From the NCBI GenBank assembly GCA_026182355.1, contig JAPFBL010001928.1, forward strand, positions 7,193,501 to 7,257,500: a DNA stretch of 64,000 bases, read 5' to 3'. The notes beneath the pieces are model-generated. The model saw only the letters and a list, made by a program, of their open reading frames with translations, did no database searches and was not told the origin of the DNA. Made by a program: the position numbers and the translations under genes. The DNA comes from Hermatobates lingyangjiaoensis (Eukaryota > Arthropoda > Insecta > Hemiptera > Hermatobatidae). Shown here piece by piece: positions 12,824-63,850 of the stretch (positions within the stretch are counted from its first letter, which is position 1; every line of letters begins with the position of its first letter).

Positions 12824-13035
12824 CAGCTCAAAAACGAAGAAAAGCAACACACAGAGAAAGAGATACACTTACAAACTCAAATTTTTGGATGACCCGGTTG
12901 CCTGGACGGTTTCCTGCCGTTGTGCTTCCGGCGTGCTTAGTCGCCCATTCTATTTTCTCGTGAAGACGGATCACCCGAAAATTTGAGTTCGTAAGTGTGT
13001 CTCTCTGTGTGTTGCTTTTCTTCGTTTTTGAGCTG
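12824..13035. mobile_element. F3 foldback element, arms about 60 bp
   Basis: It begins CAGCTCAAAAACGAAG and ends with the exact complement. The arms are near-perfect over some 60 bp and enclose a short GC-richer loop. Each arm carries the F3 core (GTGAAGAC, GG/CC hairpin, GAA, AATT, T, GAG). TA runs lie on both sides. There is no coding capacity. Confidence 0.8.
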
Positions 13036-13071
13036 ATTTGCGTCCAGTTTGGATGGTTTTTCGAATTTTGA

Positions 13072-13106
<35 letters not shown>

Positions 13107-13109
<3 letters not shown>

Positions 13110-13311
13110 TGATCAAACCACAATATGAAATGGGAAAACAAGACAAAGATCTTTCAACCGTAACAAGCGGTCTTCGTCAGAGGCAAAAACCCAACTGACT
13201 CTGACGAAGACTAATTGTTACGGTTGAAAGATCTTACCATAAGTCTTGTTTTCCCATTTCATATTGTAGTTTGATCATTGATTGTTATTTCGCGTGTTTA
13301 TGTGAAATCTT
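13107..13311. mobile_element. F2 palindromic element
   Basis: A minus-sense F2 copy is followed directly by a plus-sense copy. Both contain AAGATCTT-centred cores with CTGACGA and CGGTTGAAAGATC. It is flanked by TA runs (13076-13106 and from 13312). Confidence 0.85.
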
Positions 13312-13884
13312 TATATATATATATATATATTGTGTTCCGAGTATTTATTGTCCGAATCTTGTTTGCCAAATATAAATCGTTGTAAGTTATCTTTTCTGTT
13401 TTCATTAGTAGGAAGGTTGTATTTATAAAATAATTGTTTTGATTATCTCAAGTTAACCCGTGGAAGTTTTATCTGTATGATTGTGTAATCAGTTTGCATT
13501 GTGTTTATGAAAGCCTGGCGTGTAGTGTTTCTCCGGGTTACATCTACTAAACTGATTGATTCACTGCTTTTAATTTTTCCTTCAGTTCTCAAAGTTAATA
13601 AGTTGTTTGGTGGTTATAACAATTATTTTTTTAATTAAATTAGTAAAAAAGTCTTTTTGTTCAGAATAGAATATAATTTTGATAAGAATAATAAAATTCA
13701 AAGTAGAAATTTTGAGCGAGTGTTGTGATGTATCAAAGATAGGAAAGTGATTTTATTATGGCACTTTCAAATAAACTTACTGTTATTAGCAAGTGAAATA
13801 GATTTCTTGTTGTTTTATGTTTATTGTATATTTGCCATTTGCCATAATTAGAATTGTTTAATTTAAACAACTTTAACAAGATTT

Positions 13885-14100
13885 CACAATAACCACAGTC
13901 AACGTTCAAACCACAATAAGAAATGATAAAAAAGACTAAGATCTTTTTACCGTTAACAAGCGGTCTTCGTCATAGTCAAATTCCACTATATCTTGAAATA
14001 GAAGTATTTCAAAGAGTTTAAAGTGCAGGAAAGGACAATAGTCCAGGGAGAGATATTAAGATAAACAAAGGAGTACAGGAAGAAAAAAAGTAAAGAAAAA
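13885..14100 (-). mobile_element. F2 element, one arm plus interior
   Basis: A minus-sense F2 arm (13885-13985) is followed by AAAGTGCAGGAAAGGAC and AACAAAGGAGTACAG, the same interior found between the two arms at 37273-37650. The second arm is missing. Confidence 0.7.
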
Positions 14101-14157
14101 ATCTTCGTACATCTTTTAAAATCTTTCAATTTTATACAATATTGAGGGATTTCAAAA

Positions 14158-14245
14158 ATTACGTCTCAACACAAAAAAAGTTTAATATGAAAACCAACAA
14201 CGCGTTTCGAACTCTTAGTCTTCTTCAGGTTTACGTCTAAAAAAA
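14158..14245 (-). repeat. F1 dispersed repeat
   Basis: In minus sense: CTGAAGA, A, an imperfect hairpin closing GTTC, GAA, ACGCGT, TGTTGG, then the tail ending in GTTGAGACGT. Confidence 0.7.
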
Positions 14246-14249
14246 TATA

Positions 14250-15029
14250 CATATCTGTGAGTTTTAAGAACATCACAGTGAATTATTTGAAATTGAATAC
14301 AATATATGAATGTTGAATTATACTATTGAGATTTTTAACAGGGAAATTATTATGAAAAATGACTTAATTTAATGTCATGTTTTTTTAGGAAAGGGACAGT
14401 TTCTGATTTCATTTATTGATTAAAGAAAAATGGAAAGAATTAAATCTCTGAGGTTGACCTAAAGAGTTATATAAAACCATCTTAAACAGTTTTTTTACTT
14501 AATTATTTTTAATTTTGTTAAACCATAAAAGATATTAAATATTAAACGTTTTTGATCGCCTGTTTAGTATCTTAGCTTCCTACTCCCACAGTTATAGGCT
14601 ATCACCTTTAGCGCTGTCCTAAGAGAGACAATTATAGCTAAGTTGTTATTTACCGCTTATATGTGTGTTAGGGATGACACACATATCTGGGATGGTCCAC
14701 ATCGGGAGTCCGAAATTTTACCGCACTTAAAAGTATTACAGTAGATAATAATTTGGAAGCTTTTCTATAAGTAATGAAACTTTCCAGTATGTGGTGAGGA
14801 ATTTGTACAAATTGTTTCAGTTATCGTGTTTTTTGTAAGGCATTCCTGTGTGTATACAGTTGAATTTCTTTATACATTTCCATAATTTTACTTGTGGCAG
14901 TTAAACATATACTACATTTCATTAATAAAATGTGCAGTTGTTTTTATTTTATCATATGCGGAATGAATTAATAAGAATATTGCATGTCGCCATTGCATTG
15001 AGTTATTGAAGGCTGGACGATTGTCAGTA
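14250..15029. other. AT-rich intronic DNA before the satellite
   Basis: Nothing recognisable. The last part changes gradually into degenerate satellite sequence. Confidence 0.35.
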
Positions 15030-15049
15030 TCGTTTACGAGGTCAAAACG

Positions 15050-18000
15050 AATGACAGTTTGAATTGCAGTTGAAGTAAACCCGACCTATCAGTGACTGGA
15101 GGACCAAGGGCAGTGACCTTCTGAGCACGATCAACACTGGTCAAACCCTGACCTGTCCGTAGACTGTAATGCAGTGACCTTCCGTACATGATCATAACTG
15201 AATCTAACACAGCTGTCAGTAGTCTGACAGACTAAGGGTCACTGACCTACGAATACGATCAACTCTGAAGCAAACACTGAGGTGTCAGTAGTCTGGCTGC
15301 TTAAGGGTCACTGACATACTAATACGATCAACTCTGAACTAACACAGCTGTCAGTAGTCTGACAGACTAAGGGTCACTGATCTACGAATACAATCAACTC
15401 TGAAGGAAACACTGAGGTGTCAGTAGTCTGGTTGCTTAAGGGTCACTGACTTACTAATACGATCAACTCTGCAAGTAACACAGCTGTCAGTAGTCTGACA
15501 GACTAAGGGTCACTGATCTACGAATACGATCAACTCTGAAGCAAACACTGAGGTGTCAGTAGTCTGGCTGCTTAAGGTTCACTGACCTACGAATACGATC
15601 AACACTGAAACTAACACAGCTGTCAGTAGTCTGACAGACTAAGGGTCACTGATATACGAATACAATCAACTCTGAAGCATACACTGAGCTGTCAGTAGTC
15701 TGGTTGCTTAAGGGTCACTGACCTACTAATACGATCAACTCTGAAACTAACACAGCTGTCAGTAGTCTGACAGACTAAGGGTCACTGATTTACGAATACG
15801 ATCAACTCTGAAGCATACACTGAGCTGTCAGTAGTCTGGTTGCTTAAGGTTCACTGACCTACTAATACGATCAACTCTGAGACTAACACAGCTATCAGTA
15901 GTCTGACAGACTAAGGGTCACTGATCTACGAATACGATCAACTCTGAAACTAACACAGCTGTCAGTAGTCTGACAGACTAAGGGTCACTGATCTACGAAT
16001 ACGATCAATTTTGAAGCATACACTGAGCTGTCAGTAGTCTGGTTGCTTAAGGGTCACTGACCTACTAATACGATCAACTCTGAAACTAACACAGCTGTCA
16101 GTAGTCTGACAGACTAAGGGTCACTGATCTACGAATACGATCAACTCTGAAACTAACACAGCTGTCAGTAGTCTGACAGACTAAGGGTCACTGATCTACG
16201 AATACGATCAACTCTGAAGCATACACTGAGCTGTCAGTAGTCTGACAGACTAAGGGTCACTGATCTACGAATACGATCAACTCTGAAACATACACTGATC
16301 TGTCAGTAGTCTGGCTGCTTAAGGGTCACTGACCTACTAATACTATCAACTCTGAAACTAACACAGCTGTCAGTAGTCTGACAGACTAAGGGTCACTGAT
16401 CTACGAATACGATCAATTTTGAAGCATACACTGAGCTGTCAGTAGTCTGGTTGTTAAGGGTCACTGACCTACTAATACTATCAACTCTGAAACTAACACA
16501 GCTGTCAGTAGTCTGACAGAATAAGGGTCACTGATCTACGAATACGATCAATTTTGAAGCATACACTGAGCTGTCAGTAGTCTGGTTGCTCAAGGGTCAC
16601 TGACCTACTAATACGATCAACTCTGAAACTAACACAGCTGTCAGTAGTCTGACAGAATAAGGGTCACTGATTTACGAATACGTTCAATTCTGAAGCATAC
16701 ACTGAGCTGTCAGTAGTCTGGTTGCTTAAGGGTCACTGACCTACTAATACGATCAACTCTGAAACTAACACAGCTGTCAGTAGTCTGACAGAATAAGGGT
16801 CACTGATTTACGAATACGATCAATTCTGAAGCATACACTGAGCTGTCAGTAGTCTGGTTGCTTAAGGGTCACTGACTTACTAATACGATCAACTCTGAAA
16901 GTAACACAGCTGTCAGTAGTCTGACAGACTAAGGGTCACTGATTTACGAATACGATCAACTCTGAAGCATACACTGAGCTGTCAGTAGTCTGGTTGCTTA
17001 AGGGTCACTGACTTACTAATACTATCAACTCTGAAAGTAACACAGCTGTCAGTAGTCTGACAGACTAAGGGTCACTGATTTACGAATACGATCAACTCTG
17101 AAGCATACACTGAGCTGTCAGTAGTCTGGTTGCTTAAGGGTCACTGACTTACTAATACGATCAACTCTGAAAGTAACACAGCTGTCAGTAGTCTGACAGA
17201 CTAAGGGTCACTGATTTACGAATATGATCAACTCTGAAGCATACACTGAGCTGTCAGTAGTCTGGTTGCTTAAGGGTCACTGACTTACTAATACTATCAA
17301 CTCTGAAAGTAACACAGCTGTCAGTAGTCTGACAGACTAAGGGTCACTGATTTACGAATACGATCAACTCTGAAGCATACACTGAGCTGTCAGTAGTCTG
17401 GTTGCTTAAGGGTCACTGACTTACTAATACGATCAACTCTGAAAGTAACACAGCTGTCAGTAGTCTGACAGACTAAGGGTCACTGTTCTACGAATACGAT
17501 CAACTCTGAAGCATACACTGAGCTGTCAGTAGTCTGGTTGCTTAAGGGTCACTGACCTACTAATACGATCAACTCTGAAACTAACACAGCTGTCAGTAGT
17601 CTGACAGACTAAGGGTCACTGATTTACGAATACGATCAACTCTGAAGCATACACTGAGCTGTCAGTAGTCTGGTTGCTTAAGGTTCACTGACCTACTAAT
17701 ACGATCAACTCTGAGACTAACACAGCTATCAGTAGTCTGACAGACTAAGGGTCACTGATCTACGAATACGATCAACTCTGAAACTAACACAGCTGTCAGT
17801 AGTCTGACAGACTAAGGGTCACTGATCTACGAATACGATCAATTTTGAAGCATACACTGAGCTGTCAGTAGTCTGGTTGCTTAAGGGTCACTGACCTACT
17901 AATACGATCAACTCTGAAACTAACACAGCTGTCAGTAGTCTGACAGACTAAGGGTCACTGATCTACGAATACGATCAACTCTGAAACTAACACAGCTGTC

Positions 18001-21000
18001 AGTAGTCTGACAGACTAAGGGTCACTGATCTACGAATACGATCAACTCTGAAGCATACACTGAGCTGTCAGTAGTCTGACAGACTAAGGGTCACTGATCT
18101 ACGAATACGATCAACTCTGAAGCATACACTGATCTGTCAGTAGTCTGGCTGCTTAAGGGTCACTGACCTACTAATACGATCAACTCTGAAACTAACACAG
18201 CTGTCAGTAGTCTGACAGACTAAGGGTCACTGATTTACGAATACGATCAATTCTGAAGCATACACTGAGCTGTCAGTAGTCTGGTTGCTTAAGGGTCACT
18301 GACTTACTAATACGATCAACTCTGAAAGTAACACAGCTGTCAGTAGTCTGACAGACTAAGGGTCACTGATTTACGAATACGATCAACTCTGAAGCATACA
18401 CTGAGCTGTCAGTAGTCTGGTTGCTTAAGGGTCACTGACTTACTAATACGATCAACTCTGAAAGTAACACAGCTGTCAGTAGTCTGACAGACTAAGGGTC
18501 ACTGTTCTTCGAATACGATCAACTATGAAGCATACACTGAGCTGTCAGTAGTCTGGTTGCTTAAGGGTCACTGACCTACTAATACGATCAACTCTGAAAC
18601 TAACACAGCTGTCAGTAGTCTGACAGACTCAGGGTCACTCATTTACGAATACGATCAACTCTGAAGCATACACTGAGCTGTCAGTAGTCTGGTTGCTTAA
18701 GGTTCACTGACCTACTAATACGATCAACTCTGAAATAACACAGCGTGTCTAAGGGTCAGCTCATGATCAAGAAACTAAAGGGTTCACTAGGGATTTACGA
18801 ATACGATCAATTTTGAAGCATACACTGAGCTGTCAGTAGTCTGGTTGCTTAAGGGCCACTGACCTACTAATACGATCAACTCTGAAACTAACACAGCTGT
18901 CAGTAGTCTGACAGAATAAGGGTCACTGATTTACGAATACGATCAATTTTGAAGCATACACTGAGCTGTCAGTAGTCTGGTTGCTTAAGGGTCACTGACC
19001 TACTAATACGATCAACTCTGAAACTAACACAGCTGTCAGTAGTCTGACAGAATAAGGGTCACTGATTTACGAATACGATCAATTCTGAAGCATACACTGA
19101 GCTGTCAGTAGTCTGGTTGCTTAAGGGTCACTGACTTACTAATACGATCAACTCTGAAAGTAACACAGCTGTCAGTAGTCTGACAGACTAAGGGTCACTG
19201 ATTTACGAATACGATCAACTCTGAAGCATACACTGAGCTGTCAGTAGTCTGGTTGCTTAAGGGTCACTGACTTACTAATACGATCAACTCTGAAAGTAAC
19301 ACAGCTGTCAGTAGTCTGACAGACTAAGGGTCACTGATTTACGAATACGATCAACTCTGAAGCATACACTGAGCTGTCAGTAGTCTGGTTGCTTAAGGGT
19401 CACTGACTTACTAATACGATCAACTCTGAAAGTAACACAGCTGTCAGTAGTCTGACAGACTAAGGGTCACTGATTTACGAATACGATCAACTCTGAAGCA
19501 TACACTGAGCTGTCAGTAGTCTGGTTGCTTAAGGGTCACTGACTTACTAATACGATCAACTCTGAAAGTAACACAGCTGTCAGTAGTCTGACAGACTAAG
19601 GGTCACTGATTTACGAATACGATCAACTCTGAAGCATACACTGAGCTGTCAGTAGTCTGGTTGCTTAAGGGTCACTGACTTACTAATACGATCAACTCTG
19701 AAAGTAACACAGCTGTCAGTAGTCTGACAGACTAAGGGTCACTGATTCTACGAATACGATCAACTCTGAAGCATACACTGAGCTGTCAGTAGTCTGGTTG
19801 CTTAAGGGTCACTGACCTACTAATACGATCAACTCTGAAACTAACACAGCTGTCAGTAGTCTGACAGACTAAGGGTCACTGATTTACGAATACGATCAAC
19901 TCTGAAGCATACACTGAGCTGTCAGTAGTCTGGTTGCTTAAGGGTCACTGACCTACTAATACGATCAACTCTGAACTAACACAGCTGTCAGTAGTCTGAC
20001 AGACTAAGGGTCACTGATCTACGAATACGATCAACTCTGAAACTAACACAGCTGTCAGTAGTCTGACAGACTAAGGGTCACTGATCTACGAATACGATCA
20101 ATTCTGAAGCATACACTGAGCTGTCAGTAGTCTGGTTGCTTAAGGGTCACTGACTACTAATACGATCAACTCTGAAACTAACACAGCTGTCAGTAGTCTG
20201 ACAGACTAAGGGTCACTGATCTACGAATACGATCAACTCTGAAGCATACACTGAGCTGTCAGTAGTCTGGCTGCTTAAGGGTCACTGACTACTAATACGA
20301 TCAACTCTGAAACTAACACAGCTGTCAGTAGTCTGACAGACTAAGGGTCACTGATCTACGAATACGATCAACTCTGAAGCATACACTGATCTGTCAGTAG
20401 TCTGGCTGCTTAAGGGTCACTGACCTACTAATACGATCAACTCTGAAACTAACACAGCTGTCAGTAGTCTGACAGACTAAGGGTCACTGATTTACGAATA
20501 CGATCAACTCTGAAGCATACACTGAGCTGTCAGTAGTCTGGTTGCTTAAGGGTCACTGACTTACTAATACGATCAACTCTGAAAGTAACACAGCTGTCAG
20601 TAGTCTGACAGACTAAGGGTCACTGATTTACGAATACGATCAACTCTGAAGCATACACTGAGCTGTCAGTAGTCTGGTTGCTTAAGGGTCACTGACCTAC
20701 TAATACGATCAACTCTGAAACTAACACAGCTGTCAGTAGTCTGACAGACTAAGGGTCACTGATTTACGAATACGATCAACTTGAAGCATACACTGAGCTG
20801 TCAGTAGTCTGGTTGCTTAAGGGTCACTGACCTACTAATACGATCAACTCTGAAACTAACACAGCTGTCAGTAGTCTGACAGACTAAGGGTCACTGATTT
20901 TACGAATACGATCAATCTCTGAAGCATACACTGAGCTGTCAGTAGTCTGGTTGCTTAAGGGTCACTGACTACTAATACGATCAACTCTGAAACTAACACA

Positions 21001-24000
21001 GCTGTCAGTAGTCTGACAGACTAAGGGTCACTGATTTACGAATACGATCAACTCTGAAGCATACACTGAGCTGTCAGTAGTCTGGTTGCTTAAGGGTCAC
21101 TGACTTACTAATACGATCAACTCTGAAAGTAACACAGCTGTCAGTAGTCTGACAGACTAAGGGTCACTGATTTACGAATACGATCAACTCTGAAGCATAC
21201 ACTGAGCTGTCAGTAGTCTGGTTGCTTAAGGGTCACTGACTTACTAATACGATCAACTCTGAAATAACACAGCTGTCAGTAGTCTGACAGACTAAGGGTC
21301 ACTGATTTACGAATACGATCAACTCTGAAGCATACACTGAGCTGTCAGTAGTCTGGTTGCTTAAGGGTCACTGACTTACTAATACGATCAACTCTGAAAG
21401 TAACACAGCTGTCAGTAGTCTGACAGACTAAGGGTCACTGATTTACGAATACGATCAACTCTGAAGCATACACTGAGCTGTCAGTAGTCTGGTTGCTTAA
21501 GGGTCACTGACTTACTAATACGATCAACTCTGAAAGTAACACAGCTGTCAGTAGTCTGACAGACTAAGGGTCACTGATTTACGAATACGATCAACTCTGA
21601 AGCATACACTGAGCTGTCAGTAGTCTGGTTGCTTAAGGGTCACTGACTTACTAATACGATCAACTCTGAAAGTAACACAGCTGTCAGTAGTCTGACAGAC
21701 TAAGGGTCACTGATTTACGAATACGATCAACTCTGAAGCATACACTGAGCTGTCAGTAGTCTGGTTGCTTAAGGGTCACTGACTACTAATACGATCAACT
21801 CTGAAAAGTGACAAGCTGTCAGTAGTCTGACGAGCTAAGGGTCACTGATACGAATACGATCAACTCTGAACAACACACTGTCAGTAGTCTGTCTTAAGGG
21901 TCACTGACTACTAATACGATCAACTCTGAAACTAACACAGCTGTCAGTAGTCTGACAGACTAAGGGTCACTGATCTACGAATACGATCAACTCTGAAGCA
22001 TACACTGAGCTGTCAGTAGTCTGGTTGCTTAAGGGTCACTGACTACTAATACGATCAACTCTGAAATAACACAGCTGTCAGTAGTCTGACAGACTAAGGG
22101 TCACTGATTCTACGAATACGATCAACTCTGAAGCATACACTGAGCTGTCAGTAGTCTGGTTGCTTAAGGGTCACTGACTACTAATACGATCAACTCTGAA
22201 ACTAACACAGCTGTCAGTAGTCTGACAGACTAAGGGTCACTGATTACGAATACGATCAACTCTGAAACATACACTGAGCTGTCAGTAGTCTGGCTGCTTA
22301 AGGGTCACTGACTACTAATACGATCAACTCTGAAAGTAACACAGCTGTCAGTAGTCTGACAGACTAAGGGTCACTGATCTACGAATACGATCAACTCTGA
22401 AGCATAACACTGAGCTGTCAGTAGTCTGGTTGCTTAAGGGTCACTGACTTACTAATACGATCAACTCTGAAACTAACACAGCTGTCAGTAGTCTGACAGA
22501 CTAAGGGTCACTGATTCTACGAATACGATCAACTCTGAAGCATACACTGAGCTGTCAGTAGTCTGGTTGCTTAAGGGTCACTGACTACTAATACGATCAA
22601 CTCTGAAACTAACACAGCTGTCAGTAGTCTGACAGACTAAGGGTCACTGATCTACGAATACGATCAACTCTGAAGCATACACTGAGCTGTCAGTAGTCTG
22701 ACAGACTAAGGGTCACTGATCTACGAATACGATCAACTCTGAAGCATACACTGAGCTGTCAGTAGTCTGGCTGCTTAAGGGTCACTGACCTACTAATACG
22801 ATCAACTCTGAAACTAACACAGCTGTCAGTAGTCTGACAGACTAAGGGTCACTGATCTACGAATACGATCAACTCTGAAGCATACACTGATCTGTCAGTA
22901 GTCTGGTTGCTTAAGGGTCACTGACTTACTAATACGATCAACTCTGAAAGTAACACAGCTGTCAGTAGTCTGACAGACTAAGGGTCACTGATCTACGAAT
23001 ACGATCAACTCTGAAGCATACACTGAGCTGTCAGTAGTCTGGTTGCTTAAGGGTCACTGACCTACTAATACGATCAACTCTGAAACTAACACAGCTGTCA
23101 GTAGTCTGACAGACTAAGGGTCACTGATTTACGAATACGATCAACTCTGAAGCATACACTGAGCTGTCAGTAGTCTGGTTGCTTAAGGGTCACTGACCTA
23201 CTAATACGATCAACTCTGAAACTAACACAGCTGTCAGTAGTCTGACAGACTAAGGGTCACTGATCTACGAATACGATCAACTCTGAAACTAACACAGCTG
23301 TCAGTTCTGACGCTAAGGGTCACTGATCTACGAAACGATCAATTTTGAAGCATACACTGAGCTGTCAGTAGTCTGGTTGCTTAAGGGTCACTGACCTACT
23401 AATACGATCAACTCTGAAACTAACACAGCTGTCAGTAGTCTGACAGACTAAGGGTCACTGATTTACGAATACGATCAACTCTGAAGCATACACTGAGCTG
23501 TCAGTATGGTCTAGGGATTTCAAGAACTTAAAGAAGTGTCACTGACCAGGTACGTTTAATACGATCAACTCTGAAGCATACACTGAGCTGTCAGTAGTCT
23601 GGTTGCTTAAGGGTCACTGACTCAATCTACTGAATAACGTATCAGGACTCTTGAAACGTCATAACACAGCTGTCAGTAGTCTGACAGACTAAGGGTCACT
23701 GATCTTACTGAATACGATCAACTCTGAAGCTATACACTGAGCTGTCAGTAGTCTGGTTGACTTAAGGGTCACTGACTTACGAATACGATCAACTCTGAAA
23801 CTAACACAGCTGTCAGTAGTCTGACAGACTAAGGGTCACTGATCTACGAATACGATCAACTCTGAAGCATACACTGAGCTGTCAGTAGTCTGGTTGCTTA
23901 AGGGTCACTGACTTACTAATACGATCAACTCTGAAATAACACAGCTGTCAGTAGTCTGACAGACTAAGGGTCACTGATTTACGAATACGATCAACTCTGA

Positions 24001-27000
24001 AGCATACACTGAGCTGTCAGTAGTCTGGTTGCTTAAGGGTCACTGACTTACTAATACGATCAACTCTGAAACTAACACAGCTGTCAGTAGTCTGACAGAC
24101 TAAGGGTCACTGATCTACGAATACGATCAACTCTGAAGCATACACTGAGCTGTCAGTAGTCTGGCTGCTTAAGGGTCACTGACCTACTAATACGATCAAC
24201 TCTGAAACTAACACAGCTGTCAGTAGTCTGACAGATTAAGGGTCACTGATTTACGAATACGATCAATTCTGAAGCATACACTGAGCTGTCAGTAGTCTGG
24301 TTGCTTAAGGGTCACTGACTACTAATACGATCAACTCTGAAACTAACACAGCTGTCAGTAGTCTGACAGACTAAGGGTCACTGATCTACGAATACGATCA
24401 ACTCTGAAGCATACACTGAGCTGTCAGTAGTCTGACAGACTAAGGGTCACTGATCTACGAATACGATCAACTTCTGAAGCTATACACTGAGCTGTCAGTA
24501 GTCTGGCTGCTTAAGGGTCACTGACCTACTAATACGATCAACTCTGAAACTAACACAGCTGTCAGTAGTCTGACAGACTAAGGGTCACTGATCTTACGAA
24601 TACGATCAACTCTGAAACTATACACTGAGCTGTCAGTAGTCTGGTTGACTTAAGGGTCACTGATCTACGAATACGATCAACTCTGAAAGTAACACAGCTG
24701 TCAGTAGTCTGACAGACTAAGGGTCACTGATCTTACGAATACGATCAACTCTGAAGCATACACTGAGCTGTCAGTAGTCTGGTTGCTTAAGGGTCACTGA
24801 CTTACTAATACGATCAACTCTGAAACTAACACAGCTGTCAGTAGTCTGACAGACTAAGGGTCACTGATTTACGAATACGATCAACTTGAAGCATACACTG
24901 AGCTGTCAGTAGTCTGGTTGCTTAAGGGTCACTGACTTACTAATACGATCAACTCTGAAACTAACACAGCTGTCAGTAGTCTGACAGACTAAGGGTCACT
25001 GATTTACGAATACGATCAACTCTGAAGCATACACTGAGCTGTCAGTAGTCTGGTTGCTTAAGGGTCACTGACTTACTAATACGATCAACTCTGAAAGTAA
25101 CACAGCTGTCAGTAGTCTGACAGACTAAGGGTCACTGATTTACGAATACGATCAACTCTGAAGCATACACTGAGCTGTCAGTAGTCTGGTTGCTTAAGGG
25201 TCACTGACTTACTAATACGATCAACTCTGAAACTAACACAGCTGTCAGTAGTCTGACAGACTAAGGGTCACTGATTTACGAATACGATCAACTCTGAAGC
25301 ATACACTGAGCTGTCAGTAGTCTGGTTGCTTAAGGGTCACTGACCTACTAATACGATCAACTCTGAAACTAACACAGTCTGTCAGGTAGTCATGACAGAA
25401 CTAAAGGGTCACTAGGATTCTACGAATACGATCAACTCTTGAAGCATACACTGAGCTGTCAGTAGTCTGGTTGCTTAAGGGTCACTGACCTACTAATACG
25501 ATCAACTCTGAAACTAACACAGCTGTCAGTAGTCTGACAGACTAAGGGTCACTGATTTACGAATACGATCAATCTCTGAAGCATACACTGAGCTGTCAGT
25601 AGTCTAGGTTGCTCATTAAGGAGTCACTGAGGCCTACTAATACGATCAACTCTGAAAGTAACACAGCTGTCAGTAGTCTGACAGACTAAGGGTCACTGAT
25701 TCTACGAATACGATCAACTCTGAAGCATACACTGAGCTGTCAGTAGTCTGGTTGCTTAAGGGTCACTGACTTACTAATACGATCAACTCTGAAAGTAACA
25801 CAGCTGTCAGTAGTCTGACAGACTAAGGGTCACTGATTTACGAATACGATCAACTCTGAAGCATACACTGAGCTGTCAGTAGTCTGGTTGCTTAAGGGTC
25901 ACTGACTTACTAATACGATCAACTCTGAAAGTAACACAGCTGTCAGTAGTCTGACAGACTAAGGGTCACTGATCTACGAATACGATCAACTCTGAAGCAT
26001 ACACTGAGCTGTCAGTAGTCTGGTTGCTTAAGGGTCACTGACTACTAATACGATCAACTCTGAAAGTAACACAGCTGTCAGTAGTCTGACAGACTAAGGG
26101 TCACTGATTTACGAATACGATCAACTCTGAAGCATACACTGAGCTGTCAGTAGTCTGGTTGCTTAAGGGTCACTGACTTACTAATACGATCAACTCTGAA
26201 AGTAACACAGCTGTCAGTAGTCTGACAGACTAAGGGTCACTGATTCTACGAATACGATCAACTCTGAAGCATACACTGAGCTGTCAGTAGTCTGGTTGAC
26301 TTAAGGGTCACTGATCTACGAATACGATCAACTCTGAAACTAACACTGAGCTGTCAGTAGTCTGACAGACTTAAGGGTCACTGACCTTACGAATACGATC
26401 AACTCTGAAACTATACACTGAGCTGTCAGTAGTCTGGTTGACTTAAGGGTCACTGACCTACGAATACGATCAACTCTGAAGACTAACACAGCTGTCAGTA
26501 GTCTGACAGACTAAGGGTCACTGATCTACGAATACGATCAACTCTGAAGCATAACACTGAGCTGTCAGTAGTCTGACAGACTAAGGGTCACTGATCTACG
26601 AATACGATCAACTCTGAAGCATACACTGAGCTGTCAGTAGTCTGGTTGCTTAAGGGTCACTGACCTACTAATACGATCAACTCTGAAACTAACACAGCTG
26701 TCAGTAGTCTGACAGACTAAGGGTCACTGATTTACGAATACGATCAACTCTGAAGCATACACTGAGCTGTCAGTAGTCTGGTTGCTTAAGGGTCACTGAC
26801 TCTACTAATACGATCAACTCTGAAAGTAACACAGCTGTCAGTAGTCTGACAGACTAAGGGTCACTGATTTACGAATACGATCAACTCTGAAGCATACACT
26901 GAGCTGTCAGTAGTCTGGTTGCTTAAGGGTCACTGACTTACTAATACGATCAACTCTGAAACTAACACAGCTGTCAGTAGTCTGACAGACTAAGGGTCAC

Positions 27001-30000
27001 TGATTTACGAATACGATCAACTCTGAAGCATACACTGAGCTGTCAGTAGTCTGGTTGCTTAAGGGTCACTGACCTTACTAATACGATCAACTCTGAAACT
27101 AACACAGCTGTCAGTAGTCTGACAGACTAAGGGTCACTGATTTACGAATACGATCAACTCTGAAGCATACACTGAGCTGTCAGTAGTCTGGTTGCTTAAG
27201 GGTCACTGACCTACTAATACGATCAACTCTGAAACTAACACAGCTGTCAGTAGTCTGACAGACTAAGGGTCACTGATCTACGAATACGATCAACTCTGAA
27301 ACTAACACAGCTGTCAGTATCTGACAGACTAAGGGTCACTGATCTACGAATACGATCAATCTGAAGCATACACTGAGCTGTCAGTAGTCTGGTTGCTTAA
27401 GGGTCACTGACCTTACTAATACGATCAACTCTGAAACTAACACAGCTGTCAGTAGTCTGACAGACTAAGGGTCACTGATTTACGAATACGATCAACTCTG
27501 AAGCATACACTGAGCTGTCAGTAGTCTGGTTGCTTAAGGGTCACTGACTACTAATACGATCAACTCTGAAACTAACACAGCTGTCAGTAGTCTGACAGAC
27601 TAAGGGTCACTGATTTACGAATACGATCAACTCTGAAGCATACACTGAGCTGTCAGTAGTCTGGTTGCTTAAGGGTCACTGACTTACTAATACGATCAAC
27701 TCTGAAACTAACACAGCTGTCAGTAGTCTGACAGACTAAGGGTCACTGATTTACGAATACGATCAACTCTGAAGCATACACTGAGCTGTCAGTAGTCTGG
27801 TTGCTTAAGGGTCACTGACTTACTAATACTGATCAACTCTGAAACTAACACAGCTGTCAGTAGTCTGACAGACTAAGGGTCACTGATTTACGAATACGAT
27901 CAACTCTGAAGCATACACTGAGCTGTCAGTAGTCTGGTTGCTTAAGGGTCACTGACTTACTAATACGATCAACTCTGAAAGTAACACAGCTGTCAGTAGT
28001 CTGACAGACTAAGGGTCACTGATTCTACGAATACGATCAACTCTGAAGCATACACTGAGCTGTCAGTAGTCTGGTTGCTTAAGGGTCACTGACTACTAAT
28101 ACGATCAACTCTGAAATAACACAGCTGTCAGTAGTCTGACAGACTAAGGGTCACTGATTTACGAATACGATCAACTCTGAAGCATACACTGAGCTGTCAG
28201 TAGTCTGGTTGCTTAAGGGTCACTGACCTACTAATACGATCAACTCTGAAACTAACACAGCTGTCAGTAGTCTGACAGACTAAGGGTCACTGATTCTACG
28301 AATACGATCAACTCTGAAGCATACACTGAGCTGTCAGTAGTCTGGTTGCTTAAGGGTCACTGACTACTAATACGATCAACTCTGAAACTAACACAGCTGT
28401 CAGTAGTCTGACAGACTAAGGGTCACTGATCTTACGAATACGATCAACTCTGAAACTATACACTGAGCTGTCAGTAGTCTGGTTGACTTAAGGGTCACTG
28501 ATCTTACGAATACGATCAACTCTGAAACTAACACTAGCTGTCAGTAGTCTGACAGACTAAGGGTCACTGATCTACGAATACGATCAACTCTGAAACTAAC
28601 ACAGCTGTCAGTAGTCTGACAGACTAAGGGTCACTGATCTACGAATACGATCAACTTCTGAAGCATACACTGAGCTGTCAGTAGTCTGGTTGCTTAAGGG
28701 TCACTGACCTACTAATACGATCAACTCTGAAACTAACACAGCTGTCAGTAGTCTGACAGACTAAGGGTCACTGATCTACGAATACGATCAACTCTGAAAC
28801 ATAACACTGAGCTGTCAGTAGTCTGGTTGACTTAAGGGTCACTGACTCTACGAATACGATCAACTCTGAAATAACACAGCTGTCAGTAGTCTGACAGACT
28901 AAGGGTCACTGATCTTACGAATACGATCAACTCTGAAGCATACACTGAGCTGTCAGTAGTCTGGTTGCTTAAGGGTCACTGACCTACTAATACGATCAAC
29001 TCTGAAACTAACACAGCTGTCAGTAGTCTGACAGACTAAGGGTCACTGATTTACGAATACGATCAACTCTGAAGCATACACTGAGCTGTCAGTAGTCTGG
29101 TTGCTTAAGGGTCACTGACTTACTAATACGATCAACTCTGAAAGTAACACAGCTGTCAGTAGTCTGACAGACTAAGGGTCACTGATTTACGAATACGATC
29201 AACTCTGAAGCATACACTGAGCTGTCAGTAGTCTGGTTGCTTAAGGGTCACTGACTTACTAATACGATCAACTCTGAAATAACACAGCTCTGTTGCAGTA
29301 GGTCTGACTAGAACTAAGAAGGTCATCTGATAGGTCTTACGAATACGATCAACTATGAAGCATACACTGAGCTGTCAGTAGTCTGGTTGCTTAAGGGTCA
29401 CTGACCTACTAATACGATCAACTCTGAAACTAACACAGCTGTCAGTAGTCTGACAGACTCAGGGTCACTCATTTACGAATACGATCAACTCTGAAGCATA
29501 CACTGAGCTGTCAGTAGTCTGGTTGCTTAAGGTTCACTGACCTACTAATACGATCAACTCTGAAACTAACACAGCTATCAGTAGTCTGACAGACTAAGGG
29601 TCACTGATCTACGAATACGATCAACTCTGAAACTACACAGCTGTCAGTATCTGACAGACTAAGGGTCACTGATCTACGAATACGATCAATTTGAAGCATA
29701 CACTGAGCTGTCAGTAGTCTGGTTGCTTAAGGGCCTGACCTACTAATACGATCAACTCTGAAACTAACACAGCTGTCAGTAGTCTGACAGACTAAGGGTC
29801 ACTGATTTACGAATACGATCAATCTGAAGCATACACTGAGCTGTCAGTAGTCTGGTTGCTTAAGGGTCACTGACCTACTAATACGATCAACTCTGAAACT
29901 AACACAGCTGTCAGTAGTCTGACAGAATAAGGGTCACTGATTTACGAATACGATCAATTCTGAAGCATACACTGAGCTGTCAGTAGTCTGGTTGCTTAAG

Positions 30001-32352: not shown

Positions 32353-33050
32353 TTTTCCTTTTAAATAAGTGTTCCTTTTTCCTAAACTGATAGAGTAACT
32401 CTCCCAAGGACATATTTAACACTTCAAAATCCAAAAAAACATTTACTTATATCAATCAAGCTTTCGACCTGGCTGGCCATCTTCAGGATTATAAAGTAAA
32501 TATAGTAAGAAGAATTAAATAAAATATAAAGAAAAGAATGTAAGTAAGAATGCTGGTGAATGGAACTGCTGTCCTTATTACTAATAACAATCTCCTTCAT
32601 ATTTGCAAATATTGAAAGCATTGTTTATTAAAGAAAAATTCCTTTCACTAAATTGTCAAATAAATGATATTTGTTATTCCTAGTTCAAGAAATGTTAATC
32701 CTAGATTTAAATTTAAAAAAAATGATACTGTTAGTTGAACTACTGAGCGCTAGTGGCGCTAGTGAGTTGTAATCCTATCTTATTTCGCCTGTTATCAATG
32801 CGCGTGGTTTTAATCCTGTTTTCAATATTTTCATTATCTTCTTAATATTTTATTGTATTTTATTCTTCTTATTATATTTACTTTAGAATCCTAAAGATTC
32901 CCAGTGAGGTTGAAAGCTTGATTTAGATTAGTAAATGTGTTTTTAGATTTTGAAGTGTTGAATATGTCCTGGGTGAGTGAGTTACTCTATCAGTTAACAG
33001 TGCAACATCGTAAAGTGTTTAGGAAAAAGGAGCACTTATTTAAAAGGATC
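32353..33050. mobile_element. F5 element with long terminal inverted repeats
   Basis: The left arm (32353-32545) and right arm (about 32840-33050) are complementary over some 190 bp with substitutions. The ends read TTCCTTTTAAATAAGTG and its near-complement. The left arm holds, on the minus strand, CTGAAGA (32486-32480), GGCC/GGTC hairpin, GAA, palindrome AGCT and GATTG, which pairs with TAATC before CTGAAGA. The right arm holds a mutated plus-sense version at about 32887-32930. The middle is non-coding. Confidence 0.75.
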
Positions 33051-33465: not shown

Positions 33466-34023
33466 TACTCTCTATACCAAAACGGATGTTAAATTCAACC
33501 AACTCTCCTGATTATTGCAAACACTTTAAATATCGTATTAAATTTAGTCTTAATTTGAATTTACATCATAAAAATGTAGGTAATTTTTTAATGTTAGCAA
33601 CTGGAATATTACACTTGAAAGGATAACTAACTATACATTTAGACCTGCAGTAACTATCATTACATTATCATTTATATAGGCTGGTTAAAATAAAGGAATC
33701 ATTTAATTGATTGTCAATGCGTTTTTATCTTAGAATATAATACAGACACAGAATGGCTGTATTGAAATAAATCAATTAAATTGTTAATGAGATGATATGT
33801 ATACTTTTATTAAAGCTGAATGTAACAAAACTCCATTTTTTTATAAATTCAAGTTGAAAAGGTTAAATAAAAAATAAATTAAGTGAAAAAATTAAAGACT
33901 GTAAAAGAAAATTTGTTTTTTATTTGTGTAAAGAATGATTTCTAGTTATTATTTCTGATTATCTCTGAATTAGTTTTGTTGAATACTTGTGGTGCAGTGG
34001 TTTGAAGGAAGGTTATGTTTCAG

Positions 34024-37272: not shown

Positions 37273-37650
37273 ACAATGATCAAACCACAATATGAAATGG
37301 GAAAACAAGACTAAGATCTTTCAACCGTAACAAGCGGTCTTCGTCAGAGTCAAAAACCCAACTGAAACACTAGATGCACAAACATCATGGTTAGGTGTTG
37401 AGAAGAGTGGGAGGGAAGAGTAGTATTTTATAAGGGTGAAAGTGCAGGAAAGGACTAATGTCCAGAAAGGGATGTTTATGGAAACAAAGGAGTACAGTAA
37501 GAAAGAGCTGTCAACCCTCTTAGAAGATTGTTAGTTTTTGAGTCTGATGAAGACCGCTTGTTACGGTTGAAAGCTTTTAGTCTTGTTTTCCCATTTCATA
37601 TTGTGGTTTGACCATTGATTGTTATTCCACATGTTTATGTGAAATCTTTT
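37273..37650. mobile_element. Full-length F2 element with interior
   Basis: The left arm (37273-37365, minus sense) and right arm (37536-37650, plus sense) are inverted and enclose a 170-bp interior with AAAGTGCAGGAAAGGAC and ACAAAGGAGTACAG. The interior is shared with 14000-14090, so this is the most complete F2 copy here. The palindromic copies look like internal deletions of it. Confidence 0.85.
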
Positions 37651-45964: not shown

Positions 45965-46285
45965 ATGTTTTCCATTTCATTGTCATTTACGTTTTTCATC
46001 CATTTACGTTTACGTTTTCCATTCCATTGATGTTAACGTTTTCCATTCCATTCACATCTATGTTTTCCACTCCAATGTCGTCAGTGTTTTCCACTCTATT
46101 TACGTTTACGTTTTTCATTCCATTTACGTTTACGTTTTCTTCCATTGACGTATATGTTTCTATTCCATTGATGACTACGTTTTCCATTTCATTTACGTCT
46201 ACGTTTTCCATTCCATTGTCGTCTAAGTTTTCCGCTCCATTTACGTTTACGTTTTCTATTCCATTGACGTTTACATTTTCCATAG
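45965..46285. repeat. 24-bp minisatellite with an open minus-strand frame
   Basis: Units built on CATTCCATTGACGTTTACG with varying ends keep a 24-bp period. Because 24 is a multiple of three, the minus strand stays open for 95 codons (46283-45996) with the octapeptide theme MENVNVNG. The plus strand is also open. There are no splice or start signals, so coding is not claimed. Confidence 0.85.
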
Positions 46286-47110: not shown

Positions 47111-47236
47111 AAAAGATTTCACATAAACACGTGAAACAACAATCAATGATCAAACCACAATAAGAAATGGGAAAACAAGACTAAGATCTTTCAACCGTAA
47201 CAAGCGGTCTTCGTCAGAGTCAAAAACCCAACTGAC
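47111..47236 (-). repeat. F2 element, single full arm
   Basis: A well-preserved minus-sense arm from the CACGTGAAAC tail through AAGATCTTTCAACCGTAAC to CAAAAACCCAACTGAC, between two TA runs. Confidence 0.85.
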
Positions 47237-47592: not shown

Positions 47593-47993
47593 CTTTAAAT
47601 TAAATTTAACGACACAGAAAAAGGAATAAAAAGAACACTTACAGAATTCAATATTTCGAACTGTTGTTCGTCATCAGGAGTAGACTAGAAGAGAGGTCGA
47701 AGTGAGAGAGATGATGATTCGCTCTCCGTTCTTCGACGTGGGGAGATCTCTCTCACTTCGTCCTCTCTTCTAGTCTACTCCTGATGACGAACAGCCGTTC
47801 GAAATATTGAATTCTGTAAGTGTTCTTTTTATTCCTTTTTCTAAGGACGAAGTGAGAGAGATGATGATTCGCTCTCCGTTCTTCGACGTGGGGAGATCTC
47901 TCTCACTTCGTCCTCTCTTCTAGTCTACTCCTGATGACGAACAACAGTTCGAAATATTGAATTCTGTAAGTGTTCTTTTTATTCCTTTTTGTG
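47559..47993. mobile_element. TA run plus three F4 units
   Basis: After a TA run (47559-47590) come a minus-sense F4 unit (about 47640-47690) and two plus-sense units in tandem (ends near 47840 and 47993), about 145 bp apart. The last has CTGATGA at 47931-47937, C, GAAC/GTTC hairpin, GAA, ATAT, T, GAATTC. The loop GGGGAGATCTCTCTCACTTC is repeated. It records a local tandem duplication after foldback formation. Confidence 0.8.
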
Positions 47994-50648: not shown

Positions 50649-50847
50649 AAGATTTCACATAAACATGTGAAACAACAATCAATGATCAAACCACAATAAG
50701 AAATGGGAAAACAAGACTAAGATCTTTCAACCGTAACAAGCGGTCTTCGTCAGAGTCAAAAACCCAACTGAGCAGTTGGGTTTTTGACTCTGACGAAGAC
50801 CGCTTGTTACGGTTGAAAGATCTTAGTCTTGTTTTCCCATTTCTTAT
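50649..50847. mobile_element. F2 palindromic element, best-preserved copy
   Basis: Minus- and plus-sense arms are almost identical. In the plus arm: GACT 50786-50789, CTGACGA 50790-50796, extra A 50797, GACCG 50798-50802 pairing with CGGTT 50810-50814, GAA 50815-50817, palindrome AGATCT 50818-50823, T 50824, then AGTC 50825-50828, the exact complement of GACT. Confidence 0.88.
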
Positions 50848-51780: not shown

Positions 51781-51954
51781 GCATTTTTTACCAAAATTTT
51801 ACAAACTGATTACACTTTCTTTGAATATATCTTCTATTTAGAACATTTTTTTTAGATTAAAGATGTTCAGATTACTTCCAAAAGTAAATATCACGGGCCT
51901 CTGGTTTATTGAATTACACATAAGTCCATAATAATATTATATATTCATTGTAGG

Positions 51955-52230
51955 GTAAAAAGCTAATGGAATGGTCTCCACATATAAAAATTTAATCGTA
52001 TAAACAACGCGTTTCGAACACGGCATTAACTAAAAAATACAATGACACCAGAGAGTTATCTATAGTACCTATTTTACTTATAGTACCTATAGTACTTATT
52101 TTAGTTAATGCCTGAGGAAGAACACTATGTGTTCGAAACGCGTTGTTTATAGGATTAAATTTTTATATGTGGAGACCATTCCATTAGCTTTTTACTCTAC
52201 AATGAGTAAATACCACATAATAACTGATTG
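51955..52230. mobile_element. F1 foldback pair
   Basis: The minus-sense arm (51955-52080) and plus-sense arm (52095-52230) are inverted. The plus arm keeps CTGAGGA 52112-52118, A, GAACAC 52120-52125 with GTGTTC 52129-52134, GAA, ACGCGT 52138-52143, T, GTTT. In the minus arm 16 bp are missing, which removes CTGAGGA and half of the hairpin but leaves the rest. Confidence 0.8.
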
Positions 52231-56007: not shown

Positions 56008-56115
56008 CAATAATCAAACCACAATAAGAAATAGGAAAACAAGACTAAGATCTTTCAACCGTAACAAGCAGTCTTCGTCAGAGTCAAAAACCCAACTGAC
56101 CCGTTGGGTTTTTTG
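56008..56115 (-). repeat. F2 element, single arm
   Basis: AATCAAACCACAATAAG, AAGATCTTTCAACCGTAAC, CAGTCTTCGTCAGAG and a CCGTTGGGTTTTTTGGG joint start. The second arm is lost. Confidence 0.75.
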
Positions 56116-57200: not shown

Positions 57201-57214
57201 GAAATTACACTCCT

Positions 57215-57757: not shown

Positions 57758-57760
<3 letters not shown>

Positions 57761-58469
57761 TATGAATGGTGTATATTTTTTAGGATTTAATGACCATATC
57801 AATAAAAAGAAATTTGAAATGTTAATAAAATTTCCGAACTAGAATGGATTGTTCCCCTCCTCCCCTGACTGATCATTCGTACAGTCATTGAATCGCTGCA
57901 AAAGGCTTTTGAGAGATAATGTATTTACTTGAGCAAATGATGCATGTGTCACACGCTTTGGCAACCTTCGAGTAGTAAACCTTTACGAGGTCAAATCGTT
58001 CTCTTAAAATAGATAAAGCTACTGCTGTGGGTGCCAAATATAACGGTTAACGTGAAAGTAGTAATTGAACTCTTTTATTCAACGGTTTTTTGAACCAGAG
58101 CCATACTTTATGCATTAGTAACCTCAAATAAATTTACTATGAACTTTTTTTTCTAGAGGTTGAGTTATTTATAATATAGCTATTTCTAACTGCAGGAACT
58201 CGTTCTGCAAAAAAAAAAAACTAATTTTGAAAACGCCTAAGTACTTATAATGAAATCAGTTATTAATCAGAAGTGGTTTTCAGAGGCAGTGACTAACTAA
58301 GACTCGGGTGGTGGGTAGGGTTTGTTTTATCCTTGTAAAATTAAACAAGATGATAATGTTAAAATTTGATCGTCATCAATTAGGATCTAGAGTCTAAAGT
58401 ATAACATGACTGCCTAAGCAGCTATTAGTTCATGGTTCTTATACATATATGTTTCACAGTAAATCACAG

Positions 58470-58735
58470 TCACACAACAAAGAAACGAACGCACTTAGTG
58501 TCTCTAATTTTCGGTTGAACCGTCATCAGCAGAGTTAAGATAGGGACACCAAGCGCACCAACAGACCAACTGTTGGTCTCCAACCGTCGCTTCGCAAGTG
58601 CGCTTGGTGTCCCTATCTTAACTTTCCTGATGGCGGTTCAACCGAAAATTGGAGACACTAAGAGTGTTCGTTTCTTTGTTGTGTGATTTATTGTGAAACT
58701 TTTGTTGTCCTTTTGGATCGTTTTCCTGTTTACTA
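58470..58735. mobile_element. F3 foldback element
   Basis: Inverted arms: AACGAACGCACTTAGTGTC with GACACTAAGAGTGTTCG. The plus-sense core has TTTC, CTGATGG, C, GGTT/AACC, GAA, AATT, G, GAGA. The loop repeats GGTGTCCCTATCTTAACT. Confidence 0.75.
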
Positions 58736-59262: not shown

Positions 59263-59274
59263 TTTATATATATA

Positions 59275-62090: not shown

Positions 62091-62096
62091 CTACTA

Positions 62097-62469
62097 CCGT
62101 CTTTTACCGAAAATAAGACAGTCTTACTTTCTTTGTAGGTACAAAATACGTGCTAGGGCTTACTATATTTTTGGGGGGAGGGCTTCAACTAGATAAGTGG
62201 AAGTATATATCATTGTTTAATAATAATTTATATAAATATATTTAAATTTATTCAATTACAGTCATGTCATCTTCGTCTGGAACATAGTAATAAATTATTA
62301 AATTTGTTATAACGTTCTGATTTTCCTCCAAATTCATTTCCTGTAGAATCATTGGTCCGAATCTCTTATGTCTTGCAATATAGCTATAATTTTTAACGAA
62401 TTATATTTTTCACATTATTTTAACTAGGGCTTATTTTCAGGGGGATGTCTTATTTTCTGAAAAAGACGG
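62097..62469. mobile_element. Non-autonomous Tc1/mariner-like MITE, 373 bp
   Basis: The left end CCGTCTTTTACCGAAAATAA and the inverted right end (complement of CCGTCTTTTTCAGAAAATAA) match with three changes, flanked by TA on both sides. The interior keeps AGGGCTTA boxes near each end. TA duplication fits Tc1/mariner. No transposase frame. Confidence 0.75.
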
Positions 62470-62915
62470 TATAGTAATGCTACATTATCCCAGGATGACA
62501 TTGTAGCTTTTATAGATATATTGCCCTTTGTTGAATACGGAATTTTATTAATTCTATTTTGTTAATTGCTAATTTTAGTTTTATTTTTTGGCAAAATTTC
62601 ATTGTCCTATAGTAAGTCGTTTAGCATTGGACAGCATTTATTTAAAAACAAAAAATGTTCCATAAAGACCCTTTTTGTAAATGTAATTTAAAAAAAAAAT
62701 CATCTCATTCCTAAAATAATACTCCTACCATATTTGTAGGTATAATTTCATGCTGTACGTCAAACAGTATGATGTGTTTGTCAACCTTTCAAAATAAATC
62801 ATCAGTCAAAATTTTTACATTTTAAAAAGCTTTACACAATTCACTTTATATATAAGTGATATAGGCATGGATAGTTTATTTTAGGTTAGATATATTAGCA
62901 TAATTCAAATGATAA

Positions 62916-63153
62916 TGAAAATACGATCCGAAACGGGCAAATAAAGATAGAGGAATGTAGGCAAAGAAACCTAAAGAAATTAAAAACACACACTTACAGT
63001 CTCTAATTTTTGGTTTGAACCGTTGGTCTCCAATCGTCTTTGTACAAGTGCCCTTGGTTTCCCTCTCTTATCTCTCTTGAAGACGGTTCATACTGAAAAT
63101 TAGAAACTGTGTGTGTTTTTAATTTCTTTATATTTCTTCGTCTACATTGAACT

Positions 63154-63189
<36 letters not shown>
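62916..63189. mobile_element. F3 foldback element plus TA run
   Basis: Both arms are present: ACACACTTACAGTCTCTAAT at the left and ATTAGAAACTGTGTGTG at the right. The left begins with the F3 end-module (AAAATACGATCCGAAACGGG). The right core has TCTCT, CTTGAAGAC, GGTT, GAA, AATT. The TA run is 63161-63189. Confidence 0.75.
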
Positions 63190-63191
<2 letters not shown>

Positions 63192-63441
63192 GTATTTTTT
63201 TTTAAGGGTTGAGGTCTAATGATTTGAAACTAGTCCTTTTGCGGACGTTTCGACATATATTTAAGTCATCTTCAGGGCTATAACATGATTTTTTTAAAAT
63301 TAGCACTACTATTACTACTATTTTGGTTATTTAAAAAAAAATCATGTTGTAGCCATGAAGATGACATAAATATATGTCGAAACGTCGGCAAAAGGACTAG
63401 TTTCAAATCAAAAACCTCAACCCTCAAAAAAAAAAAAAAAA
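63192..63441. mobile_element. F6 element with about 100-bp inverted arms
   Basis: The arms (63203-63300 and 63330-63428) are near-perfect complements with T-rich ends. In plus sense: GCC, ATGAAGA (CTGAAGA with one change), T, GACATA/TATGTC hairpin, GAA, ACGT, C, GGC; GGC complements GCC. The minus-sense copy has the intact CTGAAGA. It is non-coding. Confidence 0.8.
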
Positions 63442-63486
63442 AAATAGATCATACCATATAAATATTGGGTCAAGAAAACAAATCAT

Positions 63487-63618
63487 CATATATATATATA
63501 TATATATATAATCAATGATCAAACCACAATATGAAATGGGAAAACAAGACTAAGATCTTTCAACCGTAACAAGCGGTCTTTGTCAGAGTCAAAAACCTGT
63601 TTATGTGAAATCTTTATA
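63487..63618. repeat. TA run and internally deleted F2 element
   Basis: After a TA run the minus-sense F2 core is intact except for CTTTGTCAG. It joins directly to CTGTTTATGTGAAATC, the plus-sense tail. The layout equals that at 44831-44932. Confidence 0.75.
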
Positions 63619-63631
63619 TATATATATACAC

Positions 63632-63850
63632 TTTTTCGTTGGAAATACGATTCAAAACGGACAAAAATAGTTCAATATAGACAAAGAAACATAGAGAAAT
63701 CAAAAGAACACACTTACAGTCTCTGATTTTACTGGTCCAGTGCGCTTGGTTTCCCTCTCTTATATCTCCTGAAGACGGTTCAAACCGAAAATTAGAGACT
63801 GTAAGTGTATTCTTTTGATTTCTCTATGTTTCTTTGTCTATATTGAACTA
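63632..63850. mobile_element. F3 foldback element, best core
   Basis: The left arm starts with the end-module (GGAAATACGATTCAAAACGG). The right arm core: TCTC 63765-63768, CTGAAGA 63769-63775, C 63776, GGTT 63777-63780 with AACC 63783-63786, GAA 63787-63789, AATT 63790-63793, A 63794, GAGA 63795-63798. TCTC and GAGA are exact complements. Confidence 0.8.

Follow-up and report, generated by a model that had tools for sequence, protein, structure and literature searches.

Cervera and de la Pena, in 2014, and Lunse, Weinberg and Breaker, in 2017, reportedly described minimal dimeric hammerhead ribozymes in Penelope-like elements (PLEs), as cited in PMC7761336, PMC6466107 and PMC10085705. As set out in passages of published work (PMC7761336, PMC6155905, PMC6466107), PLEs carry hammerheads of this minimal kind, which are type I in layout, have a very weak, palindromic helix III, lie in the PLE terminal repeats and reach massive copy numbers in animal genomes; in each of these respects they resemble the repeats considered here. 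We analysed a stretch of 64,000 nucleotides (hereafter the window) from the insect Hermatobates lingyangjiaoensis (assembly GCA_026182355.1, contig JAPFBL010001928.1, positions 7,193,501 to 7,257,500, forward strand), in which a first-pass annotation had recognized, between positions 12824 and 63850, six unrelated repeat families (F1–F6) with one core and compensated helices. These families are very probably minimal type I hammerhead ribozymes of PLEs, in which helix III is short and self-complementary and an additional nucleotide (N10) stands between A9 and helix II; their predicted cleavage as dimers on the 3′ side of H17 would yield unit-length RNA, and the copies in the window would be solo relics. 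The kind of ribozyme is already known, and the core seen here is a possible subclass of it: unlike the published PLE hammerheads, all families have the extra base between A9 and helix II, although published alignments may already show such a base.

A strict scan of the window (CTGANGA, a spacer of 0–3 bases, helix II of at least 4 bp, GAAA, a palindrome, a non-G base and helix I of at least 2 bp) finds 12 matches, all with spacer 1 and none with spacers 0, 2 or 3. The motif is not a product of chance, because 300 dinucleotide shuffles of the window gave only 2 matches summed over spacers 0–3 (one with spacer 1, one with spacer 3) and because, among 180 arrangements of the core letters, the true one alone matches and the other 179 give none. 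A count in shuffled sequence had been proposed in the first-pass annotation; the full pattern is far commoner in the real window, a chance origin is ruled out by both controls, and the helices, palindromes, core and single spacer base first described were all seen again in a listing of CTGANGA sites and a pairing scan. In 12 of 12 representatives, which were chosen for having that core, C3 U4 G5 A6 N7 G8 A9, G12 A13 A14 and A15.1–U16.1 are invariant. Where H17 was not demanded, base 17 is T in 41, C in 7, A in 3 and G in none of 51 candidates with spacer 1 and helix II of at least 4 bp, and the palindrome begins with A in 50 of them. For helix III the families read have nothing more than a palindrome, 4 or 6 bases long, and Vienna folding returns the monomer with helices I and II as the best structure for F2, F3, F5, F6 and F8. 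The conserved core letters are common to the hammerhead families of Rfam, yet no Rfam hammerhead family matched the window, either at gathering thresholds or at E up to 10; the best Rfam matches there, MIR821 and MIR7723, lie on fold-back hairpins and fall under the curated cut-offs. One hammerhead survey, in the passages concerned (PMC3088659), rejected hits with core changes or with a mispair beside the core, and its rejects lay mainly in repeated elements.

The helices keep their pairing while their letters change. Alignment A1, with 12 rows (F1–F10, F3b and F6b) and 96 helix cells, is paired in 96.9% of those cells, versus 71.6% after shuffling and 12.0–35.8% when the partners are slid by 1–3 columns, and its covariation score of 0.782 drops to 0.249 on shuffling and to 0.095 or less on sliding. 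Pairing reaches 94.4% in helix I and 97.9% in helix II, with two-sided changes at 6 of the 8 helix pairs. Because the rows were chosen partly for pairing, these figures measure compensation and not detection, for which the shuffles and the relaxed candidates described below are fairer controls. With the core masked, the same 12 sequences share short matches only, none in register with the core; the earlier statement that the families do not align outside it therefore holds, and the idea of a selected RNA structure is supported by pairing that is kept across families with non-aligning flanks. The six families exist as described, but there are more of them: core-masked flanks from the window and the other loci fall into 12 clusters, three of which are F2 and two of which share the F6 stem, which we would resolve into 9 or 10 distinct sets. 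The word ‘unrelated’ probably goes too far: because the same anatomy sits in PLE terminal repeats of this genome, the families may share an ancient origin as parts of retroelements rather than being six inventions. The original interval does hold copies, but others lie outside it (for example at 1111–1157, 4057–4103 and 6696–6742), and neither window copy of F6 is complete, the plus-strand copy having A at C3 and the minus-strand copy an unpaired helix I; complete F6 copies occur at three other loci (L281, L012 and L026). Because most copies are dead insertions, selective constraint would bear on the source elements that are active rather than on the individual copies of the window.

The families are a core variant of the hammerhead, because one extra base separates A9 from helix II in 12 of 12 representatives and in 33 of 35 strict hits; helix II does not follow A9 directly through a 10.1–11.1 pair, as the textbook core has it. 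We also collected relaxed candidates, demanding neither helix I nor H17, from 340 kb of this genome (the window and loci L001–L028 and L269–L282), a set biased in that some loci were chosen for holding such motifs, which is not so of the shuffles or of the 200-kb sample described below. Among its candidates with a palindrome after GAA, helix II of at least 3 bp forms in 58 of 90 at spacer 1, 7 of 89 at spacer 0 and 1 of 90 at each of spacers 2 and 3, and helix II of at least 5 bp in 40 at spacer 1 and in none at spacers 0, 2 and 3. When the F1 pattern was searched genome-wide with spacers 0–3 allowed, all but one of about 100 listed places (of 15,551) were found by eye to have spacer 1. The single extra base is thus near constant, in line with the variant class first suggested. 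Random decay of a canonical core was considered and is rejected, the spacer being nearly constant and helix II pairing being concentrated at spacer 1. The identity of N10 varies: it is T in 5, C in 4 (F3, F4, F10 and F3b), A in 2 (F1 and F2) and G in 1 (F6b) of the representatives.

An extra base at this same place is found in the (+) hammerhead of chrysanthemum chlorotic mottle viroid (De la Pena and Flores 2001, via PMC3705267), where, according to passages of the latter, the natural A10 slows cleavage moderately, U10 makes it 3–4-fold faster and C10 or G10 is strongly harmful. That ribozyme belongs to a viroid and not to a retroelement, whereas in the present families N10 is frequently A, T or C and can also be G. 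The relevant parts of PMC3088659 and PMC3705267 count natural variants carrying extra bases among the hammerheads. The motif could instead be a decayed or inert relic of an ancient PLE ribozyme, with the extra base as part of the decay, as might be argued from the many mutated copies, from the loss of C3 in one PLE lineage of this genome (PLE1, below) and from the in vitro transposition of a vertebrate PLE without ribozyme cleavage (passages of PMC11167929). Decay, however, would not preserve a single extra base from one family to the next while the helices undergo compensated changes, and the spacer counts given above also speak against a relic, which we consider doubtful beside a PLE hammerhead with a retained N10.

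The fixed extra base may mark a subclass absent from Rfam. A bolder proposal, which we put forward only tentatively, would set these ribozymes apart as a hammerhead core class of their own, defined by a base N10 that is obligatory between A9 and helix II. Such a class would extend over nine or more PLE-borne families, and possibly over animal PLEs generally; it would escape textbook-core searches and has no entry in Rfam, and its N10 could adjust the core to cleavage by dimers or with the help of protein. Vertebrate repeats appear to bear such an extra base too, and other animal PLE ribozymes probably share it. The literature searched, which did not reach Cervera and de la Pena 2014 or Lunse 2017, contained no mention that PLE hammerheads have an additional base.

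The motif is abundant well beyond the window. A 200-kb sample, taken as twenty 10-kb pieces at round-number coordinates of contigs C1–C5 of the same genome, contains 22 full patterns (21 with spacer 1, one with spacer 2), or roughly 100 per Mb, which would extrapolate to about 100,000 copies in the 910-Mb assembly. A covariance model (R1) built on 12 representatives finds, at E<0.01, 40 matches in the window and 47 in the sample, including 5 and 6 sequences, respectively, that were sources of the model; a 342-kb control drawn from 28 of 240 viral-contig loci gave 1 match, at E 0.64, and another six viral loci, selected with stem-bearing patterns, yielded 5 (E 0.00057 to 0.23). Genome-wide, the F1 pattern has 7,875 + 7,676 exact matches and its reversed pattern 0; the F2 pattern has 1,280 + 1,197 matches versus 15 + 16 for its control, counts that cover only loops shorter than the main F2 form. 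A search of the viral contigs for the pattern returned mostly chance matches, and the pairing filter left only 2 of 240 loci, one with spacer 4 and one with spacer 2; two stem-specific patterns found 1 and 5 loci there. Separately, one viral contig (L288, 12749–12795) has, by eye, an intergenic hammerhead-like motif with T10, helix I CAAT/ATTG, helix II GACC/GGTC and a stable hairpin as helix III (ACGTC GAGA GACGT), on which Rfam gave no report, and another (L287, 6011–6068) has a type III hammerhead-like match of 38.6 bits, below the Rfam gathering score of 48.5.

The copies tend to lie in fold-backs: for 25 of the 35 strict hits there is an inverted copy whose axis of symmetry falls on the 5′ side of the core. 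PLE terminal repeats, as described for the pseudo-long terminal repeats of Adineta PLEs in passages of PMC3846280, are likewise inverted, head to head and joined by a palindrome; a difference is that those passages do not mention a ribozyme. By analogy, we take the window copies for solo relics of terminal repeats, most of which form inverted pairs arranged head to head. In a fold-back, a ribozyme lies opposite its own complement and can base-pair with it, so that solo copies would be expected to be inactive. Miniature inverted-repeat DNA transposons whose terminal inverted repeats carry a hammerhead-like motif as a passenger would also account for inverted arms reaching about 100–270 bp, for the short centre and, in several cases, for adjoining TA runs. 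In the elements observed here, however, the inverted repeats meet mid-element with the ribozymes facing outward, the stems covary across families, and the motif is also found in direct orientation between PLE reading frames; a DNA-transposon origin is accordingly very improbable, and we return to PLE terminal repeats.

PLEs are present in the same genome. A GIY-YIG search gave 142 matches among the 150 scored of 9,198 candidates, some of them as −/+ neighbour pairs. At one locus, L283, the motif lies between PLE frames: its minus strand holds two repeat copies in direct orientation, 67% identical across 709 columns. Each runs from a PLE-like C-terminus (NNDKDRL.ILEA..IKDINP.LN) through an F8 hammerhead to a PLE-like N-terminus (FNSICLQEDLLPTYT), and the second is joined by an endonuclease relic. 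The two hammerheads (R1 E 3.3e-7 and 1.4e-9) are spaced 3,067 nt apart. The tandem position in PLE terminal repeats is seen, for F8, at this single, decayed locus, and core-changed versions of the motif are found at the loci of two further lineages. PLE1 (L269–L273) has an 848-amino-acid frame in which a Pfam search found nothing significant; a homology search returned 25 relatives, the majority of which contain PF26215 and many of which contain RVT_1. Its start codon lies inside a changed ribozyme core (ATGAAGA, then T, GGA...TCC, GAA, AGCGCT and C), in which C3 → A makes the ATG. PLE2 (L274) has a GIY-YIG match of 34.4 bits, above the cut-off of 22.6, and an RVT_1 match of 28.4 bits (E 1.6e-6), just under the Pfam cut-off of 29.6. 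Upstream of its frame stands a ribozyme with helix I GCC/GGC, T10 and C17 (GCC TTGATAA T GCCAAA...TTTGGC GAA ACGT C GGC), in which U3–A8 takes the place of C3–G8 identically in 4 of 4 copies read (R1 E 0.0067 to 0.017), a swap reported as natural and active in the pertinent passages of PMC3088659.

These loci also bear on a third possibility, that the families are non-autonomous retrozyme-like elements, that is, small hammerhead repeats spread via circular RNA, which borrow PLE enzymes and are not PLE terminal repeats. PLE mobilisation of retrozymes has been proposed (passages of PMC7761336), the window copies are short and lack coding sequence, and F4 forms one retrozyme-like direct tandem of 150 bp at 47694–47990 (2.0 copies, 97%) with two ribozymes in the same orientation on one strand. 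Known retrozymes, as portrayed in parts of PMC7229834 and PMC7761336, are direct tandems of 150–450 bp with a helix III that is stable in most invertebrates, whereas helix III here is a bare palindrome, most strict hits have the inverted head-to-head copy, and F8 sits in a PLE terminal repeat. The small direct tandems with a stable helix III that mark a retrozyme were not seen, F4 having a direct tandem but a palindromic helix III, and we judge the retrozyme interpretation unlikely relative to ribozymes of PLE terminal repeats.

If the families are PLE hammerheads, a tandem PLE transcript would carry a ribozyme in the gap that separates two consecutive reading frames. Two ribozymes, on two molecules or in tandem copies, could then pair through their shared palindrome (ACGCGT, AGATCT, AGCT and so on); each paired ribozyme is predicted to cut 3′ of H17, and the resulting unit-length RNA would serve target-primed reverse transcription. 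The PAc element of Anolis offers a close parallel, in that its hammerhead overlaps the start of the PLE frame and cleavage, assisted by the PLE protein, has been shown (passages of PMC11167929), the difference being that it is a vertebrate element; those passages do not mention N10. According to the same passages, that ribozyme cut only with its own protein present, and cutting was not needed for insertion in vitro, so that any role of the ribozyme in the PLE life cycle is putative.

Several observations weigh against this account. Among the strict hits, the axis is on the 3′ side in 5 of 35 and an inverted copy is absent in another 5, and neighbouring R1 matches within 1 kb are only mildly head-to-head (13 −+, 10 +−, 5 ++ and 5 −−). 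Both lineages with long open frames, PLE1 and PLE2, have changed cores, and helix I of PLE1 is poor and unpaired next to the core. At L283, which is decayed, no reverse transcriptase match was found between the hammerheads at E<=1e-3, the end matches are weak (at best 0.001 for the C-terminus and 8e-5 for the N-terminus), and the upstream hammerhead has a broken palindrome. The best Vienna structure is not the expected monomer for F1, F4, F7 and F9, and the best dimers in general differ from the predicted ones. Finally, the window itself yielded no relic of PLE coding sequence, whether the threshold was E<=1e-3 or 1e-4.

Table 1. Hammerhead copies and fold-back elements in the window, followed by core-changed ribozymes at PLE loci elsewhere in the genome. 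Model-match coordinates and E values come from covariance model R1; predicted cuts follow the hammerhead rule.
Feature	Position	Strand	Details
F1 hammerhead	52112..52147	+	R1 match 52104-52150, E 3.1e-8; CTGAGGA, A10, helix II GAACAC/GTGTTC, GAA, ACGCGT, T17; predicted cut 52144/52145
F1 fold-back element	51938..52212	.	two inverted arms, 76% identity
F1 hammerhead copy	1111..1157	-	R1 E 2.5e-8
F1-type hammerhead copy	6696..6742	+	helix I AAC/GTT; CTGANGA listing and R1
F2 hammerhead	50782..50830	+	A10, helix II GACCG/CGGTT, AGATCT, T17, helix I GACT/AGTC; predicted cut 50824/50825
F2 hammerhead, opposite arm of 50696..50847 element	50713..50761	-	pairing scan and R1
F2 fold-back element	50696..50847	.	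arms 98.7% identical, hammerheads facing outward
F2 hammerhead copy	37307..37355	-	R1
F2 hammerhead copy	47177..47225	-	R1
F2 hammerhead copy	56041..56089	-	R1
F3 hammerhead	63761..63800	+	C10, helix II GGTT/AACC, AATT, A17, helix I TCTC/GAGA
F3 hammerhead, arm of fold-back element 58451-58699	58499..58539	-	R1 E 0.0016
F4 hammerhead	47773..47814	+	C10, helix II GAAC/GTTC, ATAT, T17
F4 hammerhead, second direct copy 150 bp downstream	47923..47964	+	pairing scan and R1
F4 hammerhead, inverted arm	47644..47685	-	pairing scan and R1
F5 hammerhead	32452..32494	-	T10, helix II GGCC/GGTC, AGCT, T17, helix I TAATC/GATTG
Decayed F5 hammerhead, opposite arm	32883..32925	+	R1 E 0.022; inverted match 74%
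F6 hammerhead, C3 → A	63347..63392	+	T10, GACATA/TATGTC, ACGT, C17, GCC/GGC
F6 hammerhead, opposite arm, helix I lost	63238..63283	-	fold-back element 63195-63434, arms 85%
PLE1 start codon in changed core	L269 2811 and 138	-	
PLE1 start codon in changed core	L270 1286 and 3959	+	
PLE2 ribozyme copy, U3-A8 core	L274 732-778		
PLE2 ribozyme copy, U3-A8 core	L277 2640-2686		
PLE2 ribozyme copy, U3-A8 core	L279 1642-1688		
PLE2 ribozyme copy, U3-A8 core	L286 1843-1889		

A number of the F1 and F3 copies in the window show partial decay. The window also contains a 16-kb satellite array (15207–31419) with a unit of about 67–68 bp and higher-order periods of 136, 272 and 408 bp, shorter tandem arrays at 3176–3534, 41288–41921 and 45967–46283 with units of 116, 73 and 24 bp, respectively, and a Gln-/His-rich coding stretch (33983–36417) with PLDLSVKTVRQSADST, which is common to 17 other proteins. 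Elsewhere in the assembly, contig C1092 (locus L282) looks bacterial, with dense frames, one of which has a strong GIY-YIG match. A frame for a TAO kinase at locus L020 shares 83% identity with Nesidiocoris and 81% with Cimex proteins, two to three unnamed proteins being closer still, as suits an insect that is probably a true bug.

More broadly, PLE mobilisation is poorly understood, and a ribozyme placed between tandem frames would be a simple way to cut unit-length templates. The many families in one genome, each with helices of its own, form a natural test set for the retention of N10 and for the use of the palindrome in dimers. If N10 is indeed fixed in PLE ribozymes, hammerhead surveys built on the textbook core would miss one of the commonest forms of the hammerhead.

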